This document shows, piece by piece, positions 34,965 through 53,264 of a stretch of 64,000 nucleotides of DNA. Numbering within the stretch: the first letter of the stretch is position 1; the number at the start of each line of letters is the position of its first letter. The stretch is from Pseudomonadota bacterium (GTDB lineage Bacteria > Desulfobacterota > Desulfobulbia > Desulfobulbales > SURF-16), in the NCBI GenBank assembly GCA_018822545.1, contig JAHJKA010000055.1, positions 1-64,000 of the forward strand. The letters run 5' to 3'. A program made the position numbers and the translations under genes. The notes beneath the pieces were generated by a model. That model did no database searches, was not told the DNA's origin, and worked only from the letters and a program-made list of their open reading frames with translations.

Positions 34965-36302
34965 TTACGCACTCCGCACATTCTGCATTTCATTGACCAC
35001 ATAGCGGTGCTTACCTACTCTGGTTCGATCGATGCGTTCCACAACCAGCACCGAGAAGATCAGCTCATTCCCCATTTTGCCACGGAGAACAGTCCCGAGC
35101 TCAGCCTCAAGGTTGGCAGCCAGGGATTTTGCCTCCACTCCTGATTCGGCAACCACATGGAGGACAATCTTATTTTCAGCTTTCTGGACAAATTGGAAAG
35201 CCCGCACCCAGCCCTTGCCATCCATGAGGTGGGTGAAAAGGCTGGTATAAAATCTGCTCCCGTCTGCTCCCCTCAGAAAGTCACCTGAGCGGGCGACATT
35301 GAGATCCATGAGAGGGTACCCCCGCCCACAGGCACAACTCTCCACTCTTGGTCGTCCCAAATCTCCAATCTGATAGCGCAGCAGAGGCTGAGCATAATTA
35401 TAGAGAGGGGTGATGACAATTTCACTATCCCCGTCATTTCCATGTCCAGAACCCACAAATTCAATCCGGTTCCAGTCAATAAAAAGATGCATGCCGCCCT
35501 CAGGACATTCGCAGGCAACACACGGTGTTTCTCTGCTCCCATATTGATTATAGACTTTGCAACCAAACACCCTTTCAATGACCAGCCGCTGTTCCGGGTA
35601 AAGCACCTCGGCAGATGAAAAAACACCTTTTATACCTGTCGGCCGATAGCCTTCCGACTCGAGAAATCGGGCAAAATCAGCAAGCACCGAGGAGTACCCA
35701 TAGATAATGGTAGGCCGTAATTGTTTGGTCACCTGCCACCACTTGAAGAGATCTTTCTCCGTGTACTTATAAACCGGGACAGCAAAGGATCCGCCTAGTT
35801 TGGCACGCCACCGTTGCCATGGAGTTGGCGGCAAGGTCCTGTCATTGTTACCCCATAATTCAAGGCGAAGTTCTCCAGGCTGCCAGCCCGCCCAGCCAAA
35901 GACAAAATCCATCCAGGCCGCCATCCGTGTATAGAGAATATTGTCGGAAATAAACTGCACAGGCTTGCCGGTTGAGCCGCCGCTATGATTGACAAAACTT
36001 TGCTGCCCGTGGTCTGTTTCACTGACCAGATTCACATACTCTTGACGCAGGATGTCCTTGTCCAAGACAGGTAAGCGTACCCAATCCCCAGGAAAATCCA
36101 TGGCAGCCGGGTCAAGGCCCAAGGCCTGAAATTCTTTTTTATAGTAAGGCACATGACTCGCCGCATGGCAGGCAAGTTTTCTGGTCTGCACATCACTGGC
36201 CTCCTGCAATTGCGCCAAGGACAGCCACTGCTTGCGAGAAAGATCATCAATCACTCCGAGCCGTTGCCGACGCCGAACCTTATAAATCAGTGCAGAAAGC
36301 AT
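34965..36302 (-). CDS. CapK/phenylacetate-CoA-ligase-like adenylating enzyme
   Basis: 445 residues. The nucleotide-binding loop reads FVNHSGGSTGKPVQF (about 103-117), with YGSRETPCVACEC and the cysteine-containing LGRPRVESCACGRGYP further on, as in the CapK/PaaK-like proteins found in capsule and EPS loci. Such proteins are thought to activate an organic acid for transfer to the polymer or sugar. Substrate unknown. AGGAG lies ten bases before the ATG. Placed between a glycosyltransferase gene and a deacetylase gene; the four-cysteine stretch may bind zinc. Confidence 0.85.
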   Translation of the reverse strand: MLSALIYKVRRRQRLGVIDDLSRKQWLSLAQLQEASDVQTRKLACHAASHVPYYKKEFQALGLDPAAMDFPGDWVRLPVLDKDILRQEYVNLVSETDHGQQSFVNHSGGSTGKPVQFISDNILYTRMAAWMDFVFGWAGWQPGELRLELWGNNDRTLPPTPWQRWRAKLGGSFAVPVYKYTEKDLFKWWQVTKQLRPTIIYGYSSVLADFARFLESEGYRPTGIKGVFSSAEVLYPEQRLVIERVFGCKVYNQYGSRETPCVACECPEGGMHLFIDWNRIEFVGSGHGNDGDSEIVITPLYNYAQPLLRYQIGDLGRPRVESCACGRGYPLMDLNVARSGDFLRGADGSRFYTSLFTHLMDGKGWVRAFQFVQKAENKIVLHVVAESGVEAKSLAANLEAELGTVLRGKMGNELIFSVLVVERIDRTRVGKHRYVVNEMQNVRSA

Positions 36303-36345: not shown

Positions 36346-37479
36346 CTATCGAATACCGGCATGCGCGGCCATGACCTGCTCATACAATTGACCGTAACGC
36401 TCAGCTGTCTGAGCCATGGAGTATTCAGCAACCACCTTCTGGCGATTTGCCGCCCCCATTTTGCTTGCCATGTCCGGTTGGGTCAATAAAACCGCAATCT
36501 TTGCCGCCAGGGCCTCCGGGTTTTCCGGATCCACCAACAACCCATTCACCCCATCCTGTACAACCTCAGGAATGCCGCCGACGCTGGTTGAAACCACCGG
36601 CAGTTGACAGGCCATGGCCTCCAGCAGAACCATAGGTAATCCCTCGCGGCGCGAAGAGAGGACAAAGAGATCAGCATGCGGCAAAAGGGCATCCACGTCT
36701 GTCCGGTTGCCAAGCAGGAATACCGCCTTCTGCAGATCCAGCTCACGGATTGTCTTCTCGAGCAATGGCCGCAACTCCCCTTCACCCACCAGGACCAGAC
36801 TGAGATTTATTTGTTTCTGCATGAGCAATTTCATGGCCCGCAGCAAGGTAACCTGATCCTTGGCCTCGGTAAGCCGGCCCACGGAAATCATTATTTTGCC
36901 ACCACCGGAGGACGGCAGAATCTTTTGACCGACTTTTTCTCTGTTTACGGGCCGAAAACGTTTTATATCAACCCCGTTTAAAATGACCTGAATTGCGCTG
37001 GCAGGAATATCAAGCTGCGTGACAAAATAATTTTTCAGATCTTCGGACACGGTGGTGAAATGCGCTACCTGCCTGGCCGCCCGGCGACAGGCCTCCTGCA
37101 AAGATGGCGTACGGGAGATGGAGAACTTGGCATGTTCGGTAAAAACGACGCCCTTAACACGCGACAGCCTCACCCCCTGGGCCACCCTTCTATAGAGAGG
37201 GATATGGTGAACATGGAGGACATCCACCTGTAATTTATTCAAAATCCTGGCCACAATGAACGGCCGCAGCAAAAAGGAAAGACGAGTCATATCAAAGCTA
37301 TGACAGGGCACACCGAGCCGGGATAACACCTCGGGCATGGCCCCTGATGAGCGGTACATAAAAAGCACCATAGGGTCAAAACGACTGCGATCGAGGTTAT
37401 TGCAGACATGGGCGGCAACCATTTCCGAGCCGCCAATTTGCGGTGAGTATATGAGGTGAGCAACACGACAGATCGGCAT
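36346..37479 (-). CDS. Glycosyltransferase family 4-like (GT-B fold)
   Basis: 377 residues. N-terminal acceptor region with YSPQIGGSEMVAAHVCNNL; C-terminal donor region with SVGRLTEAKDQVTLLRAM, LLGNRTDVDALLPHADLFVLSSRREGLPMVLLEAMA and GIPEVVQDGVNGLLV (ExxxxxxxE motif). Transfers a sugar from a nucleotide donor to the lipid-linked EPS repeat unit in the cytosol. ATG 37479 preceded by TGAGGT is better than the far upstream start at 37542, which would overlap the acyltransferase gene. Confidence 0.9.
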   Translation of the reverse strand: MPICRVAHLIYSPQIGGSEMVAAHVCNNLDRSRFDPMVLFMYRSSGAMPEVLSRLGVPCHSFDMTRLSFLLRPFIVARILNKLQVDVLHVHHIPLYRRVAQGVRLSRVKGVVFTEHAKFSISRTPSLQEACRRAARQVAHFTTVSEDLKNYFVTQLDIPASAIQVILNGVDIKRFRPVNREKVGQKILPSSGGGKIMISVGRLTEAKDQVTLLRAMKLLMQKQINLSLVLVGEGELRPLLEKTIRELDLQKAVFLLGNRTDVDALLPHADLFVLSSRREGLPMVLLEAMACQLPVVSTSVGGIPEVVQDGVNGLLVDPENPEALAAKIAVLLTQPDMASKMGAANRQKVVAEYSMAQTAERYGQLYEQVMAAHAGIR

Positions 37480-37519
37480 GGTAAACCTCAGGAGCAAACG
37501 TTGTCCGGAACAAAACTTT

Positions 37520-38326
37520 CTAAGAAAGAGCCAGATCAGCATGGACCTTCAGGTACTGCTGATAGCGATCCTCCCCCACGATATCTTTGATTTCTTCGGG
37601 AATCGGCAGTTTCCTGACAATGCGCATCGGATTCCCCGCCACCTGACAGAAGGGGGGGACATCATGACTGATATGGGTGCCGATCCGGGCTACCACCCCG
37701 TCACCAATGGTTACCCCGGGATAGACAACTGTTTCCAAGGGGAGAAAACAAAAATCACCAATCGTAATGGGCCGGATGCTTTCCGGTGTGGGCAAACCAC
37801 CACTTGGCTTCAGCCGGCTCACAACATCATCAATGGGATGGCCAGGATTATCGGTAATAATCTTCGAGACTATCAGGCAGTGGCGGCCAATGGTTATCTT
37901 TTTCCCTACCCGCAAACGAACCTGTGGCCCAATATAGGTACTGTCGCCAACCACCAGTTCAGGGTTATCCAGCACCTTAAGACCTGCAAATATCGTATTA
38001 TCAAAAATACGCACATTGTCGCCGAGAGTCACCCGCAGAGGACCTTTAATGGTTGCCGAGCCATTACCTGCATATTCCATATGGAGATTCTTACCCACTG
38101 ACACACATTGCGACTTGAACATGGGCTCATAATAAACGATTCTCCAGAAATTATGCCAAAGGGCTCTGCGTAACACCCTTTCATTGTAAAGGAATGAATA
38201 CAGCTTCCGGTTATACGGCATGGGAAATCCCCGCATGGCATGAATGCCCCTATAGATCTTGTCATAAAATGGGGATTCCCTTTTACTGATCTTCAGTCGC
38301 ATTCTTGCAAAAAAACCGTCCGTCAT
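37520..38326 (-). CDS. Left-handed beta-helix acyltransferase (hexapeptide-repeat)
   Basis: 268 residues. Hexapeptide repeats run from about residue 85 to 240 (LRVTLGDNVRIFDNTIFAG, VVGDSTYIGPQVRLRVGKKI, ITIGDFCFLPLETVVYPGVT, IGDGVVARIGTHI), as in LbH O-acetyltransferases of the WcaF/NodL group. Acetyl-CoA or similar would be used to acylate a sugar of the repeat unit. GGAG lies six bases before the ATG. No membrane segments. Confidence 0.87.
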   Translation of the reverse strand: MTDGFFARMRLKISKRESPFYDKIYRGIHAMRGFPMPYNRKLYSFLYNERVLRRALWHNFWRIVYYEPMFKSQCVSVGKNLHMEYAGNGSATIKGPLRVTLGDNVRIFDNTIFAGLKVLDNPELVVGDSTYIGPQVRLRVGKKITIGRHCLIVSKIITDNPGHPIDDVVSRLKPSGGLPTPESIRPITIGDFCFLPLETVVYPGVTIGDGVVARIGTHISHDVPPFCQVAGNPMRIVRKLPIPEEIKDIVGEDRYQQYLKVHADLALS

Positions 38327-38365: not shown

Positions 38366-39205
38366 TTAGCGTATCTGCCAATAGTCGAGGAGATCACGAT
38401 TCATAATTCCTGACATTTTTTCGATATCAGGAAGGCAGGTATCCACCAGCCCTGCCCAGGTTGCCTCAGACATAACAGGGAATTCTTCTGGCCCAGCCTT
38501 TTTCAGGAGAGCATTTTTCACCAGTTTACTTTTTGAAAGGCTGTTTGCCAGCAAGCTCAAGTTGTTCTCTTTCATCCAGTGCGACACATTTCTCAGCTTG
38601 ATAAACAGTTCATAGGAACGGGGTTTTTTTGACTCATTCACCTTTTTGTCTGAAAATTGAGGAAAAATATCTTCCTTAACCCCAAGAAACGCATAAATCT
38701 GCGCAAGAATATCACGGGGCTCTTTCACCAACTCCTCAAAAAGGCAGATATAAACCTGCTCTGCCGAAAACAACTCAAGATATTTTTCAATGAATTTACT
38801 GTAGAGACTAATTTCTATGGCAAGAGGATGATCAACTAAGAATCTGTCAAAATCATACCTGTAACCTGTGAACATGACGAAATGTTTATATTGTGAATAG
38901 ATTCGGACAACCGGACTCCGCAGGATAAAAATCAATTTCACATCCGGCACGAGTTTCTTCATTCTCTCCGGACATTCTTTATGGTGAAAATAGGTGGGAG
39001 AAATGTCACCGGCAATCATCCCCTCCCGGCAGTCTGAGAAAAAATCGTTATACCAACCCACCCCATTGGCAAAATTATTATTAAAAAAATCGAGTTCTTT
39101 CATCTTTTCATACAAAAAGATGTGGGGGTGCTGCTTCAACCACTCATAAAGTTGCGTCGTGCCGCACTTTATCGGTCCAGGACATATAAAATCAGGTAAG
39201 CGCAT
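38366..39205 (-). CDS. Sulfotransferase (PAPS-dependent), copy 1
   Basis: 279 residues. The PAPS 5'-phosphosulfate loop is PGPIKCGTTQLYEWL (residues 8-22), and the 3'-phosphate site LIFILRSPVVRIYSQYKHF follows around residue 90-108 with the conserved Arg and Ser. This layout is that of heparan-type carbohydrate sulfotransferases. It would transfer sulfate to an EPS sugar in the cytosol. First of three different sulfotransferases in this operon. Confidence 0.88.
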   Translation of the reverse strand: MRLPDFICPGPIKCGTTQLYEWLKQHPHIFLYEKMKELDFFNNNFANGVGWYNDFFSDCREGMIAGDISPTYFHHKECPERMKKLVPDVKLIFILRSPVVRIYSQYKHFVMFTGYRYDFDRFLVDHPLAIEISLYSKFIEKYLELFSAEQVYICLFEELVKEPRDILAQIYAFLGVKEDIFPQFSDKKVNESKKPRSYELFIKLRNVSHWMKENNLSLLANSLSKSKLVKNALLKKAGPEEFPVMSEATWAGLVDTCLPDIEKMSGIMNRDLLDYWQIR

Positions 39206-39257
39206 AACGTCTAGTTCCTTTTGCCTCTTCTTTTCCTAAAAACCTCATGTCTTCATA

Positions 39258-40739
39258 TCAATTTGGCCCCGATCTTCCCTTCCATGAAGGAATCAGAGCC
39301 GTTGCCCGTTGGGCAAGACGAAACTGTGGGAAGAAACCAAGGGCGGTGAGAACGCCTAGAAAACAAACCATCACCAAAACTTTACCGGCCACATCACTGA
39401 TCAGGTAGCCGGTATCCAGAAAAAACATGATGGTTGCAGCTGCCCCGCCCACAACCATAAGCTGAAGAATTCTTCGCCACTCAAAGGCAATGGCGATAGA
39501 CCGTCTGGCAACAACCACGTTGAGCAAAAAAAACAGCCCAAAAGAAATCAGGGTGGAGACAGCGGCCCCATGGGCGCCGTATGCGGGAATCAGCATGATA
39601 TTCCCCCAGACATTGCATAGAAAAGTAAGGCCAACCAGTACTGAGAAAATGCCTGTCTTGTGATGCACAAAGAGGCCGACATTTACCACGGAACAGAGGG
39701 CAAAAAGGACGTAACCCCAGGCTACCAGAGCAACGAGGGAATATGCCGACCAGTATTCCCGGGCGGTCAGAATATGAACGATTTCTTTTGCCATACCGCC
39801 AATTGCCAAAGCAACGCTGGATGCGGCCACCAGAAGGAAGGTAAACATCTGGCCATATCTTTGGGCCGCATTCTCCTGTTTTGCAATAACAAAACGCTTT
39901 GGCTCCCATATCAACATAAATGGCCCGCTCACCAATATACTCACCAGCATCCCGAATTTGTAGCCAATGGCATACAGTCCTGTTTCCTCCAAGCCGACCA
40001 TGTGTTGCAGAAAAAAACGGTCGGCTGAGTGCAACGCCACCATGGTTACCGCCGCTGGCACCAAAGGCAAGGAATAGGCGAGCATTTTTTTGATCAGTCC
40101 CCAGTCGACACTCAGACCAATACGCTTTACAAAAGGCGGCAAAAGAAACAGCGTAATGACAAAAAAGATTGAGGTCTGGGCAACAAACATTCCCCAGATC
40201 CCCCACCCCAGACCGGCAACCAAAAGTATACTTAACAAGCCAACTCCGAGGCGCTGACAGACCTCCCAGAGGGCAAAGCGGCGCGATTGATCCCTGACCC
40301 GCATTTCGGTCATGACGATGGTCACGATCAGGGAAAGTTGCCCTTCCGCAAGAACAAGACGTAACAGATTGGCATCTCCATGCATATCAAGCAGTCCTGT
40401 AAAAAAAGAGGCCTGCAGATAGAGGGGTAGAAAAAGCACACTCGGCACCACCAGGGTTAACAACATGGCACTGCTCAGCACCAGTCGCTCACTCACCTTA
40501 TTTTTTTCACTTGCCCAAAATTTATATACGGTCACAGGAAGTTGCAGGCCCATAATCAAGACCGCCACATCCATAATAATCGCAAAGATACTCAGCTTTC
40601 CGTAATCTGCCGGGGCTAGATAGACTGTATAGATGGGCAACAAGAGAATTTGCAGTGAACGTGCCGCCATCCTCCCCAGCCAGTAGATCATGGCATGATG
40701 AAAAAAACTTTTTTCCCGTTTTGCCTTTTCCATCACCAC
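39258..40739 (-). CDS. Lipid-linked oligosaccharide flippase (Wzx-like)
   Basis: 493 residues with about 12-14 predicted membrane helices and the MOP/polysaccharide-synthase pattern (starting MIYWLGRMAARSLQILLLPI). It would flip undecaprenyl-linked repeat units to the periplasm. The start is GTG at 40739, immediately after the Wzy stop codon, with GAGG eight bases before; a GTG and an ATG follow within two codons. Confidence 0.88.
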   Translation of the reverse strand: MVMEKAKREKSFFHHAMIYWLGRMAARSLQILLLPIYTVYLAPADYGKLSIFAIIMDVAVLIMGLQLPVTVYKFWASEKNKVSERLVLSSAMLLTLVVPSVLFLPLYLQASFFTGLLDMHGDANLLRLVLAEGQLSLIVTIVMTEMRVRDQSRRFALWEVCQRLGVGLLSILLVAGLGWGIWGMFVAQTSIFFVITLFLLPPFVKRIGLSVDWGLIKKMLAYSLPLVPAAVTMVALHSADRFFLQHMVGLEETGLYAIGYKFGMLVSILVSGPFMLIWEPKRFVIAKQENAAQRYGQMFTFLLVAASSVALAIGGMAKEIVHILTAREYWSAYSLVALVAWGYVLFALCSVVNVGLFVHHKTGIFSVLVGLTFLCNVWGNIMLIPAYGAHGAAVSTLISFGLFFLLNVVVARRSIAIAFEWRRILQLMVVGGAAATIMFFLDTGYLISDVAGKVLVMVCFLGVLTALGFFPQFRLAQRATALIPSWKGRSGPN

Positions 40740-42002
40740 CTATATAACCTCACCTTTTTCCGAGGATATTTTGACCAATCCCTCGGAGAGAAGCAAAAGT
40801 ATCGGCACCATAAGAGAATAGGCCTGGGAGAGAAAGAAAGCGGCAACCATATAGGTGATCAGGGCAACTCGTGTACAGACCGCCAACAGTTCCATGGCCT
40901 TCTGGTCACCACTCACCTGAAATTGAGCCAAGGCCAAGCTGCAGTTTCGCCAGATGAGCCTAAGCAGCAGCAGATAAAGGATTAGTCCGCCCAACCCCAA
41001 CTCCAGAGCAACCTGGAGATAGGAATTGTGCAGGGCGCGCCAACGACCATACTCTTCACCCATGGCCGTAATGGAGTTTGTCACCCCGACGCCGGTTATG
41101 GGATTTGCAACCACTAATTGAATACTGCTGAGCCACAGACTCAGGCGACCAACCCCACCCTCCTCCACATTGACAACATTGTAATCCTCACCGCTCAACA
41201 CCTCCTGCCAGCGCCCTTTAACCGTTTCCGCAGCTGGGCTCATGACAAAAAAAACTAGCAGGGCCACCACAAAAAAACGCTGCCAGGGTTTAAGGTTCTT
41301 CCCGGTGCTGAAAAAAAGGAGGGCAGAAGCTACCCCGAGGGCCAGCAGGCCGCCACGGGAACCCGTACTCACAACACCCAGAACCTGACAGACAAGCATT
41401 CCACCCCAGAACATCTTTCCCTTCAACCTGGCCTGCAAAAAACAAAACAGGGTCAACGGAATAATAACAGCTATAATCATGGCTATATCATTGGGATCAT
41501 ATGTGGCCCCCACGCTGAGCCTCTGCAGATCGATACTCCTGTAACGAACGACAGAATCGACAAAAAGCATAGCCGTAACCAGCGACCCGGCCGCCAAGGA
41601 AACAACAACTACAATTTTTTTAAGTTGGTCAGACCGCTGGACAACAGGAAGCCAGAAGAAAAAAAGCACTGCATTGATAAGCAGGATAGTACGCCACCCC
41701 TTAAAGGCCATCCGGGGCCAGTCAGAAAAAAGAATAACCGCAAAGCCCAAAAAGAGAAAAAGCAGCATCAATTTCCCACCGGCAAACTTTCCCTCCCTTA
41801 TTGTCTGAGGACCACCGACAGCAAAAAAGGAGACACCAGTCAAGGCGACACTGATAAGGCCAAGCCGGGTGCCAGCCAAAACAGGAAACACCTCAGCGGG
41901 CCTTGCCACAACAACAAAGAGTGAAAGACAGACACACCAGAAATAGAAAAAATTCGCCCGTGGCACAAGCACAGTCTGTTCCGCATGGGTTTGCATATCC
42001 AA
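40740..42002 (-). CDS. O-antigen ligase/polymerase-family membrane protein (Wzy-like)
   Basis: 420 residues with about 11 membrane helices and a large periplasmic loop (about 255-315) containing GRLSLWLSSIQLV, ITGVGVTNSI and RALHNSYLQVALELGLGG, the O-antigen ligase/polymerase signature. In this locus it most likely polymerises the repeat units (Wzy) rather than ligating to lipid A. Adjacent to Wzx with no spacing. Confidence 0.87.
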   Translation of the reverse strand: MDMQTHAEQTVLVPRANFFYFWCVCLSLFVVVARPAEVFPVLAGTRLGLISVALTGVSFFAVGGPQTIREGKFAGGKLMLLFLFLGFAVILFSDWPRMAFKGWRTILLINAVLFFFWLPVVQRSDQLKKIVVVVSLAAGSLVTAMLFVDSVVRYRSIDLQRLSVGATYDPNDIAMIIAVIIPLTLFCFLQARLKGKMFWGGMLVCQVLGVVSTGSRGGLLALGVASALLFFSTGKNLKPWQRFFVVALLVFFVMSPAAETVKGRWQEVLSGEDYNVVNVEEGGVGRLSLWLSSIQLVVANPITGVGVTNSITAMGEEYGRWRALHNSYLQVALELGLGGLILYLLLLRLIWRNCSLALAQFQVSGDQKAMELLAVCTRVALITYMVAAFFLSQAYSLMVPILLLLSEGLVKISSEKGEVI

Positions 42003-42027
42003 TCAATCCGTTACTGGTAAAGGTTAG

Positions 42028-42948
42028 CTACTTGGCAGACTGAGAACGGGTGGACCGACTCAGTATATTGCCACCCTCATTGCCAACTGGCCCTAAGGCC
42101 TGAAAACATCCTTCAATTTTTTTTACATAAAACGCCTTCATCACCGTCCGCAGTGTGGCCGCCACCAGGCCAAGCAGTAACCGCCCACCCACCTGATTGC
42201 CGGCAAATTTCGCTCTGCAGCGCTCTGCAAAAGTATTGTCCTGTTTATCCTGGCCAGCCAAGACCCCCCCAAAAATCTTGGCAAGTTGCTCTTCCTGCCA
42301 GCGGATTCTGGCCAGATATTTCCAGTAATCCGACAACTGGGGCGGTTCATAGAAAACGCGGTGTCTGATAATGTGAAAGTGCTCCTTGGCCACCAGCAAT
42401 TGCAGAAAGGTGTCATCAGCCGTCACCCCGTTCGGGATGCCGGAAATATTCCTCTTGGCAAATTCCCTGGCCAGAGAGGGCCGATGGACCGCATACAGAC
42501 CGCCGGCCAGAAAATCCTGTTTCAGCGGAATCTGGAGAAAACCGGTAAAACGTTGACCCAGGCCGAGTCCTCGAAATCTTGGCCAGAAAGAACAACCGAC
42601 CAAGGTGGCTGTTCTTGGCTCACTGCTGAGAAGGCGAGACAAGGCCTCAATGGCCCCTGCTTCCGGCACCACGTCGCCATCCGAAAAAACAAGGATGGCA
42701 TGCCGGTTTTCCGTAAAGGCGGCATTCCAGGCCTTGACTTTTGACGGCTGGCTCAACTCCCTGAGCTCCAGGTTGGGCAGGCTCTGACAGAGGTCGCGGA
42801 CGATGTCGGCAGTGCTGTCGGTGCAACCATTGGCGTAGACCTTGATTTCACACGCCAGGCCCTGACAGTTTTCGGCAATGGCCCGCACGGTTTCGGCTAT
42901 ATGCTTCTGCTCGTTATGGGCAAGAATGCAGACACAAAGATCGTTCAC
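42028..42948 (-). CDS. Glycosyltransferase family 2, copy 1
   Basis: 306 residues. GT-A fold: VCILAHNEQKHIAETV at the N-terminus, YANGCTDSTADI nucleotide-binding Asp segment and VFSDGDVVPEAGAIEAL as the DxD metal site. Transfers a sugar in the cytosol, probably to the lipid-linked chain. The start overlaps the stop of the upstream sulfotransferase by four bases (ATGA), so translation is coupled. Confidence 0.88.
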   Translation of the reverse strand: MNDLCVCILAHNEQKHIAETVRAIAENCQGLACEIKVYANGCTDSTADIVRDLCQSLPNLELRELSQPSKVKAWNAAFTENRHAILVFSDGDVVPEAGAIEALSRLLSSEPRTATLVGCSFWPRFRGLGLGQRFTGFLQIPLKQDFLAGGLYAVHRPSLAREFAKRNISGIPNGVTADDTFLQLLVAKEHFHIIRHRVFYEPPQLSDYWKYLARIRWQEEQLAKIFGGVLAGQDKQDNTFAERCRAKFAGNQVGGRLLLGLVAATLRTVMKAFYVKKIEGCFQALGPVGNEGGNILSRSTRSQSAK

Positions 42949-43985
42949 ACCGACTCCTCTAAAGCTTTATCCCCTTTACCACAACCTCTCTCCAGATTCT
43001 GGCGCACTGGTGATTGACTGTAAAGCCTTTCGTAATCAGGCTCCGGTCCTTCACTGTAGAAATCCAGACCAAAGCCCTTGACTACCTTAAGAATTCTAGT
43101 GCTTTGCTCCAACGAAAAATATCTCTGCCAGCCTTTGAGTGGATCACCGCCCTTCGACACCTGGGAAAAAGAGGCCGTGGTCATACTCGGCTTTTCCAGT
43201 CGAGCCTTTGCCTCATCAGGCAACGGCAGTCCCCAGGTCACGAAAAGTTTCGTCAGTTCATCAAGGCCGTCACGCACCAAACGCTCATAGCACACAAGGT
43301 GAAAAGGTAAGGGAGGCTCGACGGTGAGCGCCGCGTAATACTCCATGCACCAGGAAACGGCGATATACTCTTCCACACTGCCAAGGCCTTCGCACACCCC
43401 TTGCAAATGAGGATAGACCCGAAAAAATTCATGATCAGCCGGGGCTTTAGTCGGTCGGGGCCAGCCCTTTTGCAGGTAAGAGGCGATACAGGCACAGGGA
43501 TGGCGGATAATCAAAGCGGGCGGCCGTATCGGGAAGGTGTGAGCCAGCCAGTCGAGCAGCATATTGGCCCGTACAAACTTGACGATCCACAAACGGGTAT
43601 GGCAGGCCTGCACCAGGGAAACATGGGACATAGTCCAGGAATTGCGGAGTTTGCCAAGGAGGATCTTCTGGAGAAACTTTTCACCCTCCGGCCAGTCCGT
43701 TCCCCGGGCAACCATGGTCTCCCACTTGAAACCGGCCCGTCTGGCTTGGGGAACCTGGCCAAGATGGAGTGGCTCAAAAAGAATGGAACTACCCGGCACC
43801 ATATTCACCAACTCAGCCAGCCAGGTGGTCCCTGCCCGAGGAGCACCTGCAATGACCAGGGTATCTTCCATACGGTAGTCACTGGGGGCATAAAATTTGA
43901 GCAGAAGCGGCACAAGGATACCATGCAGCCGCAGATCAAGCAGATTAAGGAGTTTATGCTGTGAAATCCTGCCAAACACTTTCAT
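42945..43985 (-). CDS. Sulfotransferase (PAPS-dependent), copy 2
   Basis: 346 residues. PAPS-binding loop VIAGAPRAGTTWLAELV (about 45-61) and a 3'-phosphate Arg-Ser-type segment near ALIIRHPCACIASYLQ. Longer than copy 1 and clearly distinct in sequence, so it probably sulfates a different site or sugar. Coupled to the following glycosyltransferase. Confidence 0.87.
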   Translation of the reverse strand: MKVFGRISQHKLLNLLDLRLHGILVPLLLKFYAPSDYRMEDTLVIAGAPRAGTTWLAELVNMVPGSSILFEPLHLGQVPQARRAGFKWETMVARGTDWPEGEKFLQKILLGKLRNSWTMSHVSLVQACHTRLWIVKFVRANMLLDWLAHTFPIRPPALIIRHPCACIASYLQKGWPRPTKAPADHEFFRVYPHLQGVCEGLGSVEEYIAVSWCMEYYAALTVEPPLPFHLVCYERLVRDGLDELTKLFVTWGLPLPDEAKARLEKPSMTTASFSQVSKGGDPLKGWQRYFSLEQSTRILKVVKGFGLDFYSEGPEPDYERLYSQSPVRQNLERGCGKGDKALEESV

Positions 43986-44043
43986 TTTCTTATCCCAATG
44001 ATCATTTTACAAATATGAAAAAGCGTGGAAGAACCAAACCATT

Positions 44044-45192
44044 TTAACGTTCCACCTTTTCCCAAACCGCCTGTTGTCTAGCTGCCACAAAGCGCCAGAA
44101 TCCTAGCAAAGCAGCGAGATTGACCACACAAAAATAATAGGGGAGATAGACAAGGTAACACGTGCGCAACCCCGTTATCAGGAAACCAAGAACAGCCAGC
44201 AGATAAAAACCACCTTGGCCCATGAGCAACAGAAAATAGGCGGCATCCTTATACATAAAGATGTTTGAAATAAGGAGAGCAAGCAGCAAAAACGGCGCCA
44301 ACCACCTGAGAATTTTATGGGAGATAAAGGCAAACCACATGCCAAAACTCAAGGAGCCACCACCGTTCAGGAAATCTGCCAGGTACTGGTAGCCACCGGC
44401 AACGATCCGGCCCTTACGCTTGAACTCGTTGTGGGCCAGCGGCACAACCTCTTCGACGGCCAGGGCATTTTCCTCGTAGACAATGCGCTGCCTCTGCACG
44501 GGGGCCTGCATGGAAAGGGTGAAGTCGTCAAGAATAGTGCCCAAAGAAAGGGAGCGAAATAAATCTCTCCGCATGGCAAACAAGGCGCCATCAACCCCGA
44601 CCATACTGCCCAAGCGGGCCTCTGCCTGCTGCACCGCTGCTTCGTAACGCATATAGAGGCTTTCTCCAGCCACCTCTTGTTCACCACGGGCCCGGACAAG
44701 GACATGGCCGCATACCACTCCAACCTCCGGATCGGCAAAGGGCGCCAGCAACTCCTGGCAGCTTGTCTCCCCCACCATGACATTGGCATCACCAAAGATG
44801 AGGATATCACCTCGAGCCTGGGCAACCGCGATGTTCAGAGCATTGGCCTTACCGGCCCGGGGTTGATAGGTAATAATCTGCACTCCCCCTGGTTTGTCGG
44901 CAAACTCCTTGAGAATCAGATTGGTTTTATCGGTGGAGCCGTCTGACACAATGATAATTTCATGATCTGCCGCGCCGAAGTCAAGGGCCAGACAATTTTC
45001 AACCTTGGCACGGATTACCTCTTCCTCATTATGGGCGGCAATAATCATCGAGACCTTGCCGGAGAAACTCTCTCTGCGCCACGGCCTTGCAAAAAGAGGG
45101 GCCAGAATGAGCACAAAGAGCGGGTAGCCGACAAAGGTCCAGACCAGCAGACAAAAACTCAACCAGAGAAAAACGGTAACAAAGACCATCAC
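44044..45192 (-). CDS. Membrane glycosyltransferase family 2, copy 2
   Basis: 382 residues. An N-terminal helix, then the GT2 domain with VSMIIAAHNEEEVIRAKV, IIIVSDGSTDKTN and IFGDANVMVGE, GTILDDFTLSM (acceptor site region), and about four C-terminal helices, as in polymerising or processive polysaccharide synthases. The QxxRW motif of true processive enzymes is replaced by a degenerate EFKRKGRI. Located in the inner membrane. Overlaps the upstream glycosyltransferase stop by four bases. Confidence 0.87.
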   Translation of the reverse strand: MMVFVTVFLWLSFCLLVWTFVGYPLFVLILAPLFARPWRRESFSGKVSMIIAAHNEEEVIRAKVENCLALDFGAADHEIIIVSDGSTDKTNLILKEFADKPGGVQIITYQPRAGKANALNIAVAQARGDILIFGDANVMVGETSCQELLAPFADPEVGVVCGHVLVRARGEQEVAGESLYMRYEAAVQQAEARLGSMVGVDGALFAMRRDLFRSLSLGTILDDFTLSMQAPVQRQRIVYEENALAVEEVVPLAHNEFKRKGRIVAGGYQYLADFLNGGGSLSFGMWFAFISHKILRWLAPFLLLALLISNIFMYKDAAYFLLLMGQGGFYLLAVLGFLITGLRTCYLVYLPYYFCVVNLAALLGFWRFVAARQQAVWEKVER

Positions 45193-46316
45193 TGTCCCTC
45201 CACGCTGACCTGACGATATAAATCCTCCAGCCGCCCTACCCGTGCTTCAATACTGAAAAACTCCTGAACCCGACGCTTGCCCTCCACCGCAAAGCGCTGA
45301 TAGAGCTCCTGGTCGGTGAGAACGTCAGCAAGGCCACGAGCAAAGACAACCGGCTGTTCCGGGGGCACCAATCTGCCACTCACGCCATCCTCGATGATCT
45401 CCGGCACCCCCCCTACCGCAGTGGCAACCACCGGTTTGCCCATAGCCATGGCCTCCAGCACCACATTGGGAATACCCTCAGAGCGTGAAGGCAAGGCCAC
45501 CACATCCGCTTCAGCCACATAGTTACCCGGGGTTTCGCTAAAGCCCGCAAAGTGGACCTTTTGGGTCAGACCAAGGCGGCTGGTCTGCTCTTGCAAGGCG
45601 TGCTTCTCTTGACCATCTCCCACTAGAACAAGATGAACATCTGCAATCTGGCCAACAAGGAGAGCAAAGGCCTCCAGGAGAACATCCAAACCCTTTTCCG
45701 GGCTGAAGCGTCCTATGGAGACAATAAATCTGCAGTCGCCGGTCATGCCGACTCTGTCCCGAACACTTGGCAGACCAGTGGCCATCGCCATGGGCCTGGC
45801 AAGATCCACAGCATTGTGGAGCACCTGCACCCGCCTGGTATTGTGACCGCCAAAAACCTTGTTCCGCTGGGCCATGGAGACGAGCACCGTCCGGTGAGCG
45901 GCCAACTGAAGGATATTGTCCACCAGATTGTAGAACTTGACCTTGATGTTCTCGTGGGTTGTACCGTGCATAAAGCAGATCCATTTCACCGGGACGAGAA
46001 ACCTGGCAAAAAAACCAAGAAAGGACGGCTTATACCCATGGGTCTGGACCACATCCAGATTTTCCTCCCTGATCTCACGGATAACCTGGCGAATCAGGTA
46101 CAAATACGACCTGTTCTTTTGTTCCAGAAAACGAACCGGAATACCGCGCTCGCGTGCTGCCTGCAAAAAGAGGGTCTCCCCTTCATCATTGTATCTGAAA
46201 TCGTAGAGGTAAATCTCGACCACCTCCGGATTGAGATTTTCAATGAGCTGAAAAATCCCCTTCACCGGACCGGTAACAGAATCTGCGGCTATGAGAAGCA
46301 TAACCTTAAGTGCCAT
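45189..46316 (-). CDS. Glycosyltransferase family 4-like, copy 2
   Basis: 375 residues. GT-B donor region: IVSIGRFSPEKGLDVLLEAF, VHFAGFSETPGNYVAEADVVALPSRSEGIPNVVLEAMA and GVPEIIEDGVSGRLV with the family's ExxxxxxxE. Cytosolic. A purine-rich GGGGGG precedes the ATG. Fourth sugar-adding enzyme of the operon (with 36346, 42028 and 44044), suggesting a repeat unit of at least four sugars plus the initiating one; this count is an inference. Confidence 0.9.
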   Translation of the reverse strand: MALKVMLLIAADSVTGPVKGIFQLIENLNPEVVEIYLYDFRYNDEGETLFLQAARERGIPVRFLEQKNRSYLYLIRQVIREIREENLDVVQTHGYKPSFLGFFARFLVPVKWICFMHGTTHENIKVKFYNLVDNILQLAAHRTVLVSMAQRNKVFGGHNTRRVQVLHNAVDLARPMAMATGLPSVRDRVGMTGDCRFIVSIGRFSPEKGLDVLLEAFALLVGQIADVHLVLVGDGQEKHALQEQTSRLGLTQKVHFAGFSETPGNYVAEADVVALPSRSEGIPNVVLEAMAMGKPVVATAVGGVPEIIEDGVSGRLVPPEQPVVFARGLADVLTDQELYQRFAVEGKRRVQEFFSIEARVGRLEDLYRQVSVEGQ

Positions 46317-46394
46317 AAGAGCCCCCCCGATACAGCAAGCGCCTTATCATCATTACAAGAGGACTATCTCCGCCTTTCTGGCCGTGGCCGATCC

Positions 46395-47609
46395 CTACTC
46401 CCATACACCCTCCAGACGGTCAGATGGCGGACCCACGGCCACTGTACTCTTTATAGTCTTGCGCAACCCATAGGCGATCCAGGTAAAAAAGGGCAGAGGG
46501 TCTTGAAGATCAAAATCATCGCGATAGACCCACCAGCCGGCAAGGGAAAAGAAATCGGCAAGAAAGCGCGTTTTATCATGACTGCTCTTAAGCTGAGGCC
46601 AAAATGCACGCAGATCGCCGCCGAGCCAGCGCGATTTCACCCCGGTGGCAAAACTGGCAACCGGCTCCACATCACCATCAACAGCAATGCGATAGATGAG
46701 CCAAGGGAAATCAACCCCTGAGGCAATGGCTTGGGCCACCGACCCCCAGAATCTTGGGTTTATGTCGATGAGGTATGGGGTGCCGGTGTGCGGATCCACG
46801 ATAAAATCGGCCTGGCAGACGCCATGCCACTCCATGGCCTCAAGCAGTTTCTGTAAATGTGACTCAGCCTGCTCGCTGCGGATACTTTGACGCAGAACCG
46901 CCTGACCAAATCGAACGGGATACTCCCTGAGCTGCTTGTAAGCAACCTTGGCACGCAACTGCCCCCGGCAAAAGAGCATTGCCACACAATGGGTCTCGCC
47001 CCCCATCTTCTCCTGGACAAAAAACCGTTCCCATGGTTGGCCGCAGTAAGATGCCCCGCCAAGAAGCTCGCCAAGATCAGCAGCCGAACCCACTTCCGCG
47101 ATGCCCCAGCCGCCGCCCCCCTGATTGGGCTTGATCAAGACAGGATAGCGCAGCGCATGGCACAAAGACATTTCGGCCTGCAGGTTGAGAGCTGTCAAAG
47201 AGCGGGGATGAGGAACGCCAAGGGTGTCGGCCAAGGCGCCCCATCTCTCCTTATTATGAGCGGCCAGAATCTGTTGATAATCAGGAATCACCAACTTGAC
47301 ATAGCGGCTCAATTCATCCTTATATTTCGCCACCAAAAAGGTTTCCTCAAGGACAGGAATAAGGACATCAGCCTGCCATTCTTTGATGTGGCGAAGCAGG
47401 CAATCTTTAAAGGCCTCGGGTTCGCTGAAGGGAGATGGATAGACGAAGCTGCCATGGGCGTACCTGGAAGCGGCAGCCATCGCCCAGGGCTCAGCATCGC
47501 CAACAACCACCTTGCAGCCTTGTTTACCAAGACTGCGCACGATGTTATAGGCCACCCTGCTCTTACCGGAGGTGACGATAACAGTCTGTTTTTGTGCGCT
47601 TGTCTCCAT
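46395..47609 (-). CDS. ATP-grasp ligase
   Basis: 404 residues. ATP-grasp fold with RYPVLIKPNQGGGGWGIAEV (lysine and glycine-rich loop, about 150-170), an acidic metal segment TPYLIDINPRFWGSV (about 300), and an N-terminal pre-ATP-grasp Rossmann region. It joins a carboxylate to an amine, probably attaching an amino acid or similar group to a sugar precursor or polymer. GGGAG precedes the ATG. Together with the FemAB, DegT-like and decarboxylase genes upstream it suggests an amino-acid decoration. Confidence 0.86.
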   Translation of the reverse strand: METSAQKQTVIVTSGKSRVAYNIVRSLGKQGCKVVVGDAEPWAMAAASRYAHGSFVYPSPFSEPEAFKDCLLRHIKEWQADVLIPVLEETFLVAKYKDELSRYVKLVIPDYQQILAAHNKERWGALADTLGVPHPRSLTALNLQAEMSLCHALRYPVLIKPNQGGGGWGIAEVGSAADLGELLGGASYCGQPWERFFVQEKMGGETHCVAMLFCRGQLRAKVAYKQLREYPVRFGQAVLRQSIRSEQAESHLQKLLEAMEWHGVCQADFIVDPHTGTPYLIDINPRFWGSVAQAIASGVDFPWLIYRIAVDGDVEPVASFATGVKSRWLGGDLRAFWPQLKSSHDKTRFLADFFSLAGWWVYRDDFDLQDPLPFFTWIAYGLRKTIKSTVAVGPPSDRLEGVWE

Positions 47610-47675
47610 AAATCTCCCAGCGTTTCCTGCCCCGACAGCTCAACTGCCGACACGATGGCCAAGGCAACAATAGAT

Positions 47676-48617
47676 TCAGCGTAACATCTTTATCTGAAGT
47701 ATTAAGTATCGCAACTCGGTCCGGAAATAGTCATACCACCCTTTAATACCAAGCCCGCTTACAGAAAGCGGTGTATAATTCATGGCCGCCATTTCCTGGC
47801 CAAGTTTATACTGAATGAAAAGAACCTCATGTTTTTGGAGACCTTGCTTCCACTTGGCAAGGCTCTTGCGATTTGGATCAGATTTAACATTGGTATGCAG
47901 TTGTTGTTGATTTTCCGGAATGCGGTCAGCGTAGCCGCTGGTCACATCCTTTTTGGAAGCACGAGCACCAAGAAAATCTAGAATTTCCGCCATGACCTCC
48001 GCAGTATTTTCTATGAGTTTCTCATAGTGCACACAATAAAGGTTTTTATTTTTTCTGTTTTGCTCGACGATCTTGGCCCTCTTCCTGAATTGCCAGACAA
48101 AGTAGGGTAGCGAATGGCCCATAACCTTGCCGGAATAGAGACAGCTGGCGTTTTTCTGGGAATTAAAGATTGCCCGTGGATCGCGCATCACAAAAATATT
48201 CTTTGCCTCGCCAAATGTCTTTTGGACATCTTCGAGAATATCAATATAATAACCGGCCTTGTGTACAAAGATTGGTGAAGAAGTCTCCTCAAAATATTCT
48301 AGCATACAGTGGTGCAAGATATCCTTAAAGTTGAGCGGATAACCGACTGCTTGCAACTTCTCAAAAAGAACCTGTCGATCAATTTTCCATTCTTTAAAAC
48401 GAATATCAGCGAACAATTCATCAAGATAGCCATGCAGGCTCTGGTCATCGGCAATGGTTTCATATTGTTCCGGAATAAGACGGTGTATTGCCCCTGGGAA
48501 ACCCGCCTCAATGCCAACCGCGACATCCTCATACTCATCCAAAAGCCGGCAGAGAAAAGTAGAGCCAGACCTGCTGATATAGTTAACAAACACAAAACTT
48601 TTTTCTTTTGTATCCAT
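47676..48617 (-). CDS. Sulfotransferase (PAPS-dependent), copy 3
   Basis: 313 residues. PAPS loop FVNYISRSGSTFLCRLLDEY and 3'-phosphate segment IFVMRDPRAIFNSQKN (Arg and Ser spaced as in carbohydrate sulfotransferases). I chose the ATG at 48617 with GGAGAG before it; the frame is open to 48689 inside the previous gene. It starts four bases after the DegT-like stop codon. Third of three different sulfotransferases in this operon. Confidence 0.88.
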   Translation of the reverse strand: MDTKEKSFVFVNYISRSGSTFLCRLLDEYEDVAVGIEAGFPGAIHRLIPEQYETIADDQSLHGYLDELFADIRFKEWKIDRQVLFEKLQAVGYPLNFKDILHHCMLEYFEETSSPIFVHKAGYYIDILEDVQKTFGEAKNIFVMRDPRAIFNSQKNASCLYSGKVMGHSLPYFVWQFRKRAKIVEQNRKNKNLYCVHYEKLIENTAEVMAEILDFLGARASKKDVTSGYADRIPENQQQLHTNVKSDPNRKSLAKWKQGLQKHEVLFIQYKLGQEMAAMNYTPLSVSGLGIKGWYDYFRTELRYLILQIKMLR

Positions 48618-48621
48618 AGGG

Positions 48622-49830
48622 TCACTCTCCACAGGTGCCGCAGCCCTCGGCCACGGAAATTCTCCCAAATTCGATGGTTTCGAGCCCATCGAGACAGGCG
48701 CAAACCCTTTTGGCTATGTTGCGGGCAATCTTCTCATTCACGGCCAGATGGGTGGGCAGGGTAACGAGACGATTGGCAATTTCCCTGGCCCCCGGTGTCG
48801 GCCTCCCGTCCCCAGCCAGGCTGGTGCTCAGGGCAGGTAAATCACAAAGGGCGTGGGGATAAAATTGGCGGATCCCGAGCATGGCCAATGACTGTGCGTC
48901 CTGCTGATTACTCACCAGAAGAGGATAGCGGATCAAGGGAGGCATACCTGCCAGATCACCGCCACCTCCTTCTTTAGCAAACAGGATATGATAAATATGG
49001 CCAATGGCAGACCGATGCCGATTGAGACGAGCCAGTGCAGAGAGGCTTGCCGAGCCAATTCGCTGATAGAGCAAGGGCATGGCGCTAACGCTAAAAGCAG
49101 GGTCATATACTGTGCGGCCAAGGCCCAAGGGTAATTTTTCCAGAATCCAGTAGAAATAGGGCCGGGAAAATATCTGCACGACGAAGGGAAGCAGGCAGTG
49201 AGGTGACTTGGCCGTAAGCACATCAAAATCATGATCCAGGCGGACCAACTCCGGCGCCTTGCTGGCGATCAGGGCTCCACCCCCTCCAAGCGGCAGAGGC
49301 TTACCGCGCCCAAAACTAAACACCGTAAAATCAGCGGCACGCCCCTGTTGTGATGCAGCATTTGCCTCCGTCAGATATTGGGCTGAATCCTCGACACAAA
49401 CAATCCCACTCTCATGCGCGATCCTTGCAAGGCTATTGATATCGCTTTGAACACCGAGAAGATGCTGACCGACCACGGCCAGGGTCCGTGAGTTTATTTT
49501 CCGCTTCACATCAGCAAGATCAGGCTGAAAGGTATGGGGGTCCATATCATAGACCGCAACTTTACAGCCGGCCTTGACCACGGCAGCAGCTAAAGAATAG
49601 CATGTATAGCCCGGTACCAGTATTTCACAAGAGCTGACAGTGCGCTTTTGGGCCAAGGCCTCAAAAAGAAGAGCGAGCAGGCCACGAGCGCTACTGGCCA
49701 AGACACAGACCTCAGCGTTTACATAACGCCGCAGGTCGTTTTCGAAATCGCCGACTCCAGGAAAAAAGCTACTGGCCAGAGCCCGGAAGGGCAGTCGTGC
49801 CTCTGCGGGTGGAAGAGCAAAAAAAGTCAT
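48622..49830 (-). CDS. DegT/DnrJ/EryC1-family aminotransferase-like protein
   Basis: 402 residues. PLP-fold of sugar aminotransferases: ILVPGYTCYSLAAAVVKAGC, CVEDSAQYL, and FSFGRGKPLPLGGGGAL with the Schiff-base lysine. The region between about residue 215 and 310 departs from typical family members. It may aminate a keto-sugar or related intermediate. Start ATG 49830 overlaps the FemAB stop as ATGA; the frame is open to 49896. The last residues contain Cys-Gly-Thr-Cys, possibly a metal site. Confidence 0.82.
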   Translation of the reverse strand: MTFFALPPAEARLPFRALASSFFPGVGDFENDLRRYVNAEVCVLASSARGLLALLFEALAQKRTVSSCEILVPGYTCYSLAAAVVKAGCKVAVYDMDPHTFQPDLADVKRKINSRTLAVVGQHLLGVQSDINSLARIAHESGIVCVEDSAQYLTEANAASQQGRAADFTVFSFGRGKPLPLGGGGALIASKAPELVRLDHDFDVLTAKSPHCLLPFVVQIFSRPYFYWILEKLPLGLGRTVYDPAFSVSAMPLLYQRIGSASLSALARLNRHRSAIGHIYHILFAKEGGGGDLAGMPPLIRYPLLVSNQQDAQSLAMLGIRQFYPHALCDLPALSTSLAGDGRPTPGAREIANRLVTLPTHLAVNEKIARNIAKRVCACLDGLETIEFGRISVAEGCGTCGE

Positions 49831-50870
49831 CGATCGATATACTTCCTCAGTCGCGGCCCACAATAATTGGCAATCGGAAGCGGCAAATGCCGCCAAATCT
49901 TCTCGGCGGCCTGCCGGCAGCCCCCCGACATTTCATGCTTGGTAAAGGCCAGTGAATCTTCTCTCTTGTACCAATACAAAGGGCGTGGCTGTGCACCCCA
50001 TTGCTTTTTAAAGACGTAGGTTCCTTCCTCCGGTGTTGAACGGCCGAAATCAAAACGGCTAAAACTGTTATCCGCGGCATATTCCAAAAAAGTCCAGTAG
50101 AGCAGCATATTAGGGCTTAAGATACTGAATTCCCGTAATGCCGAGGCCCAAGGAATGGTAACACTGTCGCCATGGCTCAATGTGATGCCAGCGGCCACAG
50201 GTAGGGTATCTTTATAGATCACTGCCACAGTTGCCCTCTTGCCATATCCAGCAATAATGGCCCGCATCCATTTCTCCGAGTGGACAGGAGAGCCAAGATC
50301 GCGCATATTTCGGGCAAAGACCTGATAAAAATCATCCAGCAATTCTGCACCGCCACGCCGGGAGACGAGACCGGCCTTGCCGCCCCTGTTTATCTGACTC
50401 CGCAATTTCGACTTGAAGCCCTTCCATAATTGGTCTGCAGAGCCAGGTAAATCAAGAACCATGCGACATTTATTTGTCACCTGACAAAACTGCCCTGTCC
50501 TTTCGACAACAGCCTCAGCCTGTGCCATCCTAATCTCCAAACCGGCATCAAACTCATCCGCCAAATGAAGTGCTCGCTCTAACAAAGCTTGGGCAACCGC
50601 ACCGCTGTCGGCAAGGATTCCCCCATAGTCACAGAACGGTAACGACACAAGGTTACCACGGCCCCATGGTTTCCGGATCAAAGCCAAGGGTAAAACACCC
50701 ACAAGACCATGCTGGCTGTAAGCAGCAAGATTAAACATGGGGTGGCCGTAGCTATTTTCCACGGCCTGTTGCCATGCTGATGAAAGATAGACACCACCGC
50801 CATCATGGGCCTGAACATAGTTATCCCAAGCTTGCTGATCCGATAGATTGATATTTTTTATCTCTACCAT
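49827..50870 (-). CDS. FemAB-type acyl/aminoacyl transferase, XrtA/PEP-CTERM-associated
   Basis: 347 residues, two GNAT-like halves of the Fem family: LSSAWQQAVENSYGHPMFNL and PFCDYGGILADSG in the first, VAVIYKDTLPVAAGITLSHG and FDFGRSTPEEGTYVFKKQWGA in the second. The exosortase-linked subfamily is known as a marker of XrtA loci; family members add amino acids from aminoacyl-tRNA or transfer acyl groups. AGGA precedes the ATG at 50870; the frame is open to 51002 but that start overlaps the decarboxylase gene. Confidence 0.88.
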   Translation of the reverse strand: MVEIKNINLSDQQAWDNYVQAHDGGGVYLSSAWQQAVENSYGHPMFNLAAYSQHGLVGVLPLALIRKPWGRGNLVSLPFCDYGGILADSGAVAQALLERALHLADEFDAGLEIRMAQAEAVVERTGQFCQVTNKCRMVLDLPGSADQLWKGFKSKLRSQINRGGKAGLVSRRGGAELLDDFYQVFARNMRDLGSPVHSEKWMRAIIAGYGKRATVAVIYKDTLPVAAGITLSHGDSVTIPWASALREFSILSPNMLLYWTFLEYAADNSFSRFDFGRSTPEEGTYVFKKQWGAQPRPLYWYKREDSLAFTKHEMSGGCRQAAEKIWRHLPLPIANYCGPRLRKYIDR

Positions 50871-50970
50871 CTGTTTCCTGGAGCGTTGCTCTCTGGATAA
50901 AAAACTGCGCCCCTCTGCAAAATCACTGCTGTTATCGAGATCGTTTTCCAGGGGCTTGACACCAATCTTT

Positions 50971-52448: not shown

Positions 52449-53264
52449 CTAGGAGTTCGGCAGTGGTACGAAATCAAAATCATTCAACAACCGTTCAAAA
52501 CGGATCATGGTTTTATCAAGATTGTTGTAGTGCCGGAACCTCGACAAGAGCCGCGCCTCACTGAAACGGGGCTGGCCATGGTCAATTTCCCACGGATGGA
52601 GATAGAAGACAAAGGACTGCTTTTCTTGCTCATTAATGCGCTTCAGGGCAAATTTGGTAAACCAGTAGGGAAAAAGACGAAAATAGCCCCCACCGGAAAC
52701 CGGGATATTTTTCCCGAAAATACGCGCCGTTGAGATGGGGAACTCCTCCAGACCTTGCTCGGCGTGGGTATAACGAAAACGGGGAGAGTCAGGAATGCCG
52801 TACCTGTCGTGGACAATAGGAAAAATACTGGAATCCAGAGTAAATCCGGTCTCCTTCAAAATACCCAAGGCCCACAGGGAGTTGCTGGTAATCGAATAAC
52901 TGGGAGCCCGATAGGCTGTAATCTTCCGCTGGCAGATGCCTTCCAGGATATTTTTCGCCATGACAGTATCATGCCGGAACTCTTCCGGGGTCAGGTCATA
53001 GATATTCCTGTGCCAGTAACTATGACAGCCTATCTCATGGCCATCTTCCATAATGGCCCGAACAACTTCCGGATGCTTCTCGGCGACCCAGCCCAAAACA
53101 AAGAAAGTAGCTCGCACATCATACTTCTTAAGCATCTGTAAGATGTGATTGGTGTTGGTCTGCACTCGCTGGTCCATCCCGTGCCAGTCCTGCGGAGAAA
53201 CGATATCCGCAAAGGCTGCAACCTGGAAATAATCCTCAACATCAATGGTCAGATAATTTTTCAT
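52449..53264 (-). CDS. Polysaccharide deacetylase, exosortase-A-associated (DUF3473 type)
   Basis: 271 residues. TIDVEDYFQVAAF at the N-terminus gives the Asp pair of the CE4 family; GHEIGCHSYWHRNIY gives the zinc His motif; the C-terminal DUF3473-like part ends near HPWEIDHGQPR. The typical start of this subfamily begins close to residue 1 here, which favours ATG 53264, although its GGGGAG is very close to the ATG; the longer frame begins at 53303. Without a signal peptide, it probably acts in the cytosol. Confidence 0.87.
   Translation of the reverse strand: MKNYLTIDVEDYFQVAAFADIVSPQDWHGMDQRVQTNTNHILQMLKKYDVRATFFVLGWVAEKHPEVVRAIMEDGHEIGCHSYWHRNIYDLTPEEFRHDTVMAKNILEGICQRKITAYRAPSYSITSNSLWALGILKETGFTLDSSIFPIVHDRYGIPDSPRFRYTHAEQGLEEFPISTARIFGKNIPVSGGGYFRLFPYWFTKFALKRINEQEKQSFVFYLHPWEIDHGQPRFSEARLLSRFRHYNNLDKTMIRFERLLNDFDFVPLPNS

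Follow-up and report, generated by a model that had tools for sequence, protein, structure and literature searches.

Does an exopolysaccharide (EPS) operon that encodes three different sulfotransferases make a sulfated polymer? The question is raised by the first 64,000 nucleotides of contig JAHJKA010000055.1 (assembly GCA_018822545.1; hereafter the window), from a bacterium placed by GTDB in the order Desulfobulbales. In this window three sulfotransferase genes, here called ST1, ST2 and ST3, lie on the minus strand within a Wzx/Wzy-type EPS operon that also encodes an exosortase. The presence of ST1-ST3 in such a cluster, together with a genome able to make the sulfate donor 3'-phosphoadenosine-5'-phosphosulfate (PAPS), suggests that the slime is probably sulfated, and we consider it likely that the operon makes a Wzx/Wzy-type, exosortase-linked exopolysaccharide that carries sulfate.

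The products of the three genes are divergent PAPS-type sulfotransferases, each scoring over its Pfam cut-off (Table 1). A first-pass annotation of the same DNA had placed three such open reading frames here and had assigned them different versions of the PAPS loop, and both points hold: the loop reads KCGTT in ST1, RAGTT in ST2 and RSGST in ST3. In each protein the loop is followed by a 3'-phosphate motif (RSPVVRIYS, RHPCACIAS and RDPRAIFNS, respectively), so that at the level of sequence all three combine a sulfotransferase domain with both PAPS motifs. When the three were aligned with nine further sulfotransferases (all 12 match Sulfotransfer_3 at E ≤0.001), no variation was seen at Arg96 and Ser104 of the 3'-phosphate motif or at Glu157, and almost none at the loop residue Gly15 (numbering of ST1). 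The start of ST3 chosen in that annotation is preferable to the start of the longest open reading frame (48689), since its ATG lies 4 bases past the upstream stop codon and has GGAGAG ahead of it. Recent duplication of one sulfotransferase can be ruled out as the origin of the set: the best pair, ST1 and ST3, is 20% identical over 164 residues by BLASTP, and the other pairs gave just short local matches.

The run of EPS genes extends on the minus strand from 56080 to 33774, and the ST genes are packed tightly into it, with overlaps or gaps of 66 bases or less. Upstream of them lie genes for an epimerase, EpsI, the exosortase, an XrtA-system deacetylase, a pyridoxal phosphate (PLP)-dependent decarboxylase, FemAB and a DegT aminotransferase. 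Interspersed with them or following them are genes for an ATP-grasp enzyme, glycosyltransferases of families 4 and 2 (GT4, GT2), Wzy, Wzx, an acyltransferase, an AMP-binding enzyme and a PgaB-like deacetylase. The sulfotransferases thus stand amid polymer-assembly genes, as is expected of a cluster for a sulfated polysaccharide. The EPS-operon setting proposed in the first-pass annotation is borne out, as are the acyltransferase and the deacetylases that it listed, two polysaccharide deacetylases being present. Its description of the locus as XrtA-linked stands in part. The exosortase itself scores below the XrtA cut-off, so that the label rests on XrtA-associated neighbours that pass theirs (TIGR03019 and TIGR03006 in the operon, TIGR03013, EpsB_2, in a second EPS block, and PrsT TIGR02917) and on a PEP-CTERM protein over cut-off (TIGR02595). 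The second block also has matches to TIGR03018, TIGR03007, TIGR03016 and TIGR03027, all below their cut-offs.

Table 1. Features of the window, in window coordinates, with the profile matches on which each assignment is based.
Feature	Coordinates	Strand	Evidence and remarks
ST1	38366..39205	-	279 aa, heparan-sulfate 3-O/N-sulfotransferase type; Sulfotransfer_1 PF00685 66 bits (cut-off 22)
ST2	42945..43985	-	346 aa; Sulfotransfer_3 PF13469 34.4 bits (cut-off 27)
ST3	47676..48617	-	313 aa from ATG 48617; Sulfotransfer_3 PF13469 51.4 bits (cut-off 27)
Polysaccharide deacetylase, PgaB-like	33774..34964	-	PF01522; TIGR03938 89.4 bits, below cut-off
AMP-binding enzyme	34965..36302	-	PF00501
GT4 glycosyltransferase	36346..37542	-	PF00534
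Hexapeptide acyltransferase	37520..38326	-	PF00132
Wzx-type flippase	39258..40739	-	PF01943
Wzy-type polymerase / O-ligase	40740..42002	-	PF04932
GT2 glycosyltransferase	42028..42948	-	PF00535
GT2 glycosyltransferase with membrane segments	44044..45192	-	PF00535; hydropathy
GT4 glycosyltransferase	45189..46316	-	PF00534
ATP-grasp enzyme	46395..47609	-	PF02786, PF15632
DegT-type aminotransferase	48622..49896	-	PF01041 115.5 bits
FemAB protein of XrtA systems	49827..51002	-	TIGR03019 265.9 bits (cut-off 260.35)
PLP-dependent decarboxylase	50971..52398	-	PF02784
XrtA-system polysaccharide deacetylase	52449..53303	-	TIGR03006 382 bits (cut-off 276.2)
Exosortase	53320..54186	-	PF09721; TIGR02602 over cut-off; XrtA TIGR03109 197.4 bits, below cut-off 208
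EpsI	54183..54875	-	TIGR02914
Nucleotide-sugar epimerase, TviC-like	55034..56080	-	NF011728 492.5 bits, below cut-off 760
PEP-CTERM protein, likely exosortase substrate	56485..57390	-	TIGR02595 26.7 bits (cut-off 16)
Second EPS block	8508..14655	-	priming sugar transferase, tyrosine kinase, chain-length determinant, outer-membrane protein, export protein

In the mechanism that we favour, APS kinases would convert adenosine-5'-phosphosulfate (APS) to PAPS, and ST1, ST2 and ST3 would move sulfate from PAPS onto sugars of the lipid-linked repeat unit in the cytoplasm; the sulfated unit would then be flipped by Wzx and polymerised by Wzy, and the chain exported. Cytosolic sulfation ahead of Wzx is the natural reading because the three proteins have no strongly hydrophobic segment (no 19-residue window above 1.6 in a hydropathy scan). 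The host genome, of 3.34 Mb on 94 contigs and with a completeness of 84.8%, contains two APS kinases over cut-off, and its dsrA gene points to the sulfate-respiration pathway as the likely source of APS. One APS kinase lies on contig C37 (L014:6964-10033), where genes for an epimerase, a mannose-1-phosphate guanylyltransferase and the APS kinase follow in series, as if the supplies of PAPS and GDP-mannose were linked. The other, which has an N-terminal extension, lies on contig C55 (L012:9585-11640) together with dsrA; a gene for cobyrinic acid a,c-diamide synthase precedes it, and a sulfotransferase of a fifth type follows 16 bases on, the genome holding five sulfotransferase matches in all. 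Recycling of sulfate by sulfatases was set aside as part of the scheme: the genome has two PF00884 (sulfatase) matches, and their frames lack [CS]xP[SA]R, the formylglycine site of sulfatases, so that these proteins are probably not sulfatases of the formylglycine type.

Similar pairs recur in the order. Among the matches listed, at least 9 more cases of an APS kinase gene about 2 kb or less from a sulfotransferase gene were found by eye in other genomes (G067, G096, G073, G104, G137, G134, G085, G054 and G022), suggesting that the two enzymes are frequently encoded together in the Desulfobulbales. APS kinases also occur near exosortases. At least 10 of 103 exosortase matches (those scoring from about 87 bits upwards, with the own match included and weaker fragments dropped) have one of the 150 APS kinase matches listed within 20 kb, against 0.86 expected under uniform placement. 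When the 102 matches other than our own are grouped by genus, the count is at least 7 of 43 against 1.7-2.6 expected, with P values (0.001 to 0.01) much weaker than in the ungrouped test.

The first-pass annotation had also held that sulfated polymers are rare among described XrtA-linked EPS. Of the 242 genomes of the order, 95 have an exosortase and at least 133 a Sulfotransfer_3 match. In the order-wide search many of the Sulfotransfer_3 matches listed belong to open frames 500-1000 residues long, and long fusion proteins bearing a sulfotransferase domain thus seem common in the order. Co-occurrence was counted in 80 stretches around the highest-ranked exosortase matches (one on an already-sampled contig was skipped), reaching up to 16 kb downstream and 4 kb upstream. 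At least seven carry a Pfam-checked sulfotransferase, one apiece, and none carries two or more; many stretches end at contig ends, and 7 of 80 is therefore a lower bound. This count misses the sulfotransferases of G007, which is not among the 80, and those of G096, which lie beyond the stretch on a contig (C25) with two sulfotransferases, an exosortase and an APS kinase match. Two matches that were not Pfam-checked, of 935 aa in L049 and, among the named loci considered below, of 248 aa in L200, were left out. A further protein, in an exosortase locus of the same genus (L079:13012-13959, genome G001), belongs to an NKWYS family and matched a sulfotransferase profile; it was not counted and is possibly a distant sulfotransferase relative. 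For genes of the ST1 type, 5 of 46 matches, located on 4 contigs, have an exosortase at a distance of 20 kb or less, where 0.35 would be expected (46 of 48 ST1 matches, with the own match and one fragment left out, and 102 exosortase matches, own excluded).

Beyond these stretches, 80 named loci found via FemAB/XrtA, 44 of them 15 kb or longer, yielded sulfotransferases in six, all gammaproteobacterial (L193, L197, L206, L207, L214 and L220), with two each in L193 and L214. The first four of these share a common sulfotransferase type with the loop SRFRSGST, about 3-6 kb downstream of FemAB. Alteromonas sediminis U0105 and Marinobacter xestospongiae JCM 17469 are cultured bacteria whose XrtA loci include sulfotransferases. 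Sulfotransferases are thus uncommon at exosortase/XrtA loci, in support of the annotation's claim. The present set of three is rare, but it is not unique. In G007, of the same GTDB family, contig C18 (L135, L145) likewise carries an exosortase, three Pfam-confirmed sulfotransferases, a GT4 gene and a polymerase-like gene; it differs in that its exosortase is fused to EpsI and that the contig also encodes a bifunctional enzyme combining ATP sulfurylase and APS kinase. That an enzyme forming PAPS accompanies the exosortase and the three sulfotransferases there supports a sulfated EPS.

Several observations weigh against such a product in the window. Same-cluster PAPS-synthesis genes have been called a 'hallmark' of sulfated-polysaccharide clusters (PMC11641403), and both APS kinases of the host lie outside the window's contig (C52). 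As that contig is just 76,007 bases long, a link to an APS kinase farther away may still exist. No CysQ-family PAP (3'-phosphoadenosine-5'-phosphate) phosphatase was found in the 84.8% complete genome, in a search that did not extend to other PAP phosphatases. No sulfotransferase was found in 73 of the 80 exosortase stretches. ST2 and ST3 have weak sequence matches in PDB and no close characterised relative, and tyrosylprotein sulfotransferases rank first in Foldseek searches with their low-confidence AlphaFold models (E 3.0e-7 and 1.9e-5). In addition, ST1 and ST3 look like later arrivals in the locus, judging from the base composition and gene order considered below.

In the PDB sequence search ST1 matches a bacterial sulfotransferase (3rnl, E 2.2e-22) and 3-OST-3A1 (2.3e-20), and heparan-sulfate 3-O- and N-sulfotransferases match it at 2e-20 to 2e-12. 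Its segment KELDFFNNNFANGVGWYNDFF aligns with the segment of 3-OST-3A1 holding the Glu that we take to be catalytic, with KELDFF opposite EPHFF, and the significant similarity of ST1 to the 3-OST and NDST enzymes thus spans the catalytic segment. Because of this resemblance to heparan-sulfate enzymes, the acceptor of ST1 is most likely a unit with an amino sugar or uronic acid. ST2 and ST3 gave no 3-OST or NDST sequence match up to E 1 in the PDB search.

One or more of the enzymes might sulfate a small glycolipid, lipopolysaccharide or secreted metabolite and merely be located in the EPS operon, which we judge unlikely. The best PDB sequence match of ST2 is SULT7A1 (E 0.0011), and weak matches to NoeE, a nodulation sulfotransferase, were obtained for ST2 (22.8 bits) and ST3 (22.3 bits); however, the latter scores are far under the cut-off of 500, and the tight packing of the ST genes into the EPS run speaks against an unrelated role. 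Less probable still, and in our view improbable, is that the substrate of ST3 (or ST2) is a protein, namely a PEP-CTERM or other surface protein, as the leading Foldseek matches and the nearest PEP-CTERM gene (Table 1) might suggest. The models, however, are of low confidence (mean predicted local distance difference test score 53.6 for ST3 and 53.4 for ST2) and have further matches among sulfotransferases that act on carbohydrates and small molecules, while sequence matches to tyrosylprotein sulfotransferases are not significant (E about 0.1). The Foldseek results on these models support a sulfotransferase fold for ST2 and ST3 and give no acceptor call.

The history of the three genes appears to differ. 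The operon is a mosaic with respect to its nearest relatives: the exosortase core has its closest counterparts in G122 (57-73% identity), the epimerase in G002 (77%), and the set of Wzy, Wzx, ST2 and GT4 in G078, from another family (57-77%). A C-terminal fragment in L126 is 77% identical to ST2. There is no sulfotransferase between Wzx and GT4 in G078, and hence no ST1 at the matching site. The GC content of ST1 (0.413) and ST3 (0.429) contrasts with that of ST2 (0.534) and of the 17 other operon genes (0.517, standard deviation 0.020). The GC values and the G078 comparison suggest that ST2 is an old part of the locus and that ST1 and ST3 were added later. The order FemAB, DegT, ATP-grasp, GT4 is common to the window (46395-49896) and G050 (L087:6642-9207), with ATP-grasp enzymes that are 55% identical, and ST3 lies between DegT and ATP-grasp in the window but not in G050. 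Relatives of ST1 occur in 33 of the 242 genomes of the order, and those of ST2 in 6 of the 242 (own genome included in both counts); none of the 3 other genomes of the genus has an ST1 relative. A scan of genome contigs found no close ST3 relatives, and weak matches occur in 5 genomes besides its own (58 searched), the best by E-value being 29% identical.

This history raises the possibility that fewer than three positions of the polymer carry sulfate, with ST2 original and ST1 and/or ST3 recent, redundant or inactive. We regard this as a doubtful alternative. It fits the low GC content of ST1 and ST3 and the lack of ST1 in the related cluster of G078, and it finds a parallel in synechan, where deletion of one of two sulfotransferase genes left bloom formation and EPS accumulation substantially unaltered (PMC8205485). 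Set against it, all three frames are open, with both PAPS motifs preserved along with the Arg, Ser and Glu that do not vary in the alignment, and the divergence among ST1-ST3 is too great for simple redundancy. In the favoured scheme of a sulfated repeat unit, that unit would be the acceptor and all three enzymes would be active, acting at different positions; that there are three distinct sulfation sites is a guess, made less certain by the signs that ST1 and ST3 are recent.

Comparison with known systems places the locus in context. The synechan xss cluster of Synechocystis PCC 6803 (PMC8205485) likewise encodes a Wzx/Wzy EPS with more than one sulfotransferase, of distinct subfamilies; it differs in being cyanobacterial, in having two sulfotransferases and in that the sulfate of its polymer has been measured. 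Exosortase is not mentioned in the available main text of that paper. The capsule cluster of Vibrio sp. KMM 8419 (PMC11641403) resembles the window in having three sulfotransferases, one of them ascribed to O-antigen, in a large polysaccharide locus, but it is an 80-gene, ABC-transporter capsule cluster with the PAPS-synthesis genes inside the locus, as against Wzx/Wzy and exosortase here. That of Cobetia marina KMM 1449 (PMC11766843) shares with the window's genome sulfotransferase, PAPS-synthesis and polysaccharide genes and GDP-mannose synthesis, and differs in its ABC-transporter capsule and its cysQ. The putative sulfated glycosaminoglycan (GAG) cluster of Pontiella sulfatireligans (PMC7356697) also places a GAG-type sulfotransferase amid GT2, GT4 and transaminase genes, but has one of three sulfotransferases inside the cluster and no exosortase in the paper's available main text. 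The XrtA/PEP-CTERM EPS loci of Haft 2006 (PMC1569441) share exosortase, EpsI, deacetylase, FemAB, EpsB_2, PrsT and a PEP-CTERM protein with the window; the available main text of that paper has no sulfotransferase, and the window's exosortase is under the XrtA cut-off. By analogy, the locus would work like the published sulfated-polysaccharide clusters, and the exosortase setting and dsr-bearing host set it apart. A literature search on sulfotransferases in connection with exosortases or PEP-CTERM, on APS kinases in connection with exosortases and on sulfotransferases of Desulfobulbales turned up nothing that points to such a link, with subscription literature mostly uncovered.

Sulfated polysaccharides were termed exclusive to cyanobacteria among bacteria in the synechan paper of 2021 (PMC8205485), and gene clusters for them have since been reported in marine heterotrophs (PMC11641403, PMC11766843). 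In granular sludge, sulfated, GAG-like material has been found chemically, while genome searches yielded few sulfotransferases (PMC10483923). Tentatively, and as a possibility that we hold below even chances, sulfate-respiring members of the Desulfobulbales may divert part of their APS via dedicated APS kinases into GAG-like, multiply sulfated polysaccharides of exosortase loci, with sets of sulfotransferases swapped so that the sulfation pattern is lineage-specific, as in animals on heparan sulfate. Loci of this kind suggest candidate makers of the sulfated GAG-like material of granular sludge (PMC10483923), and the present one would supply new heparan-type sulfotransferases for testing. A genetically defined candidate in a dsrA-bearing organism would tie sulfate respiration to biofilm chemistry and to metal and calcium binding.

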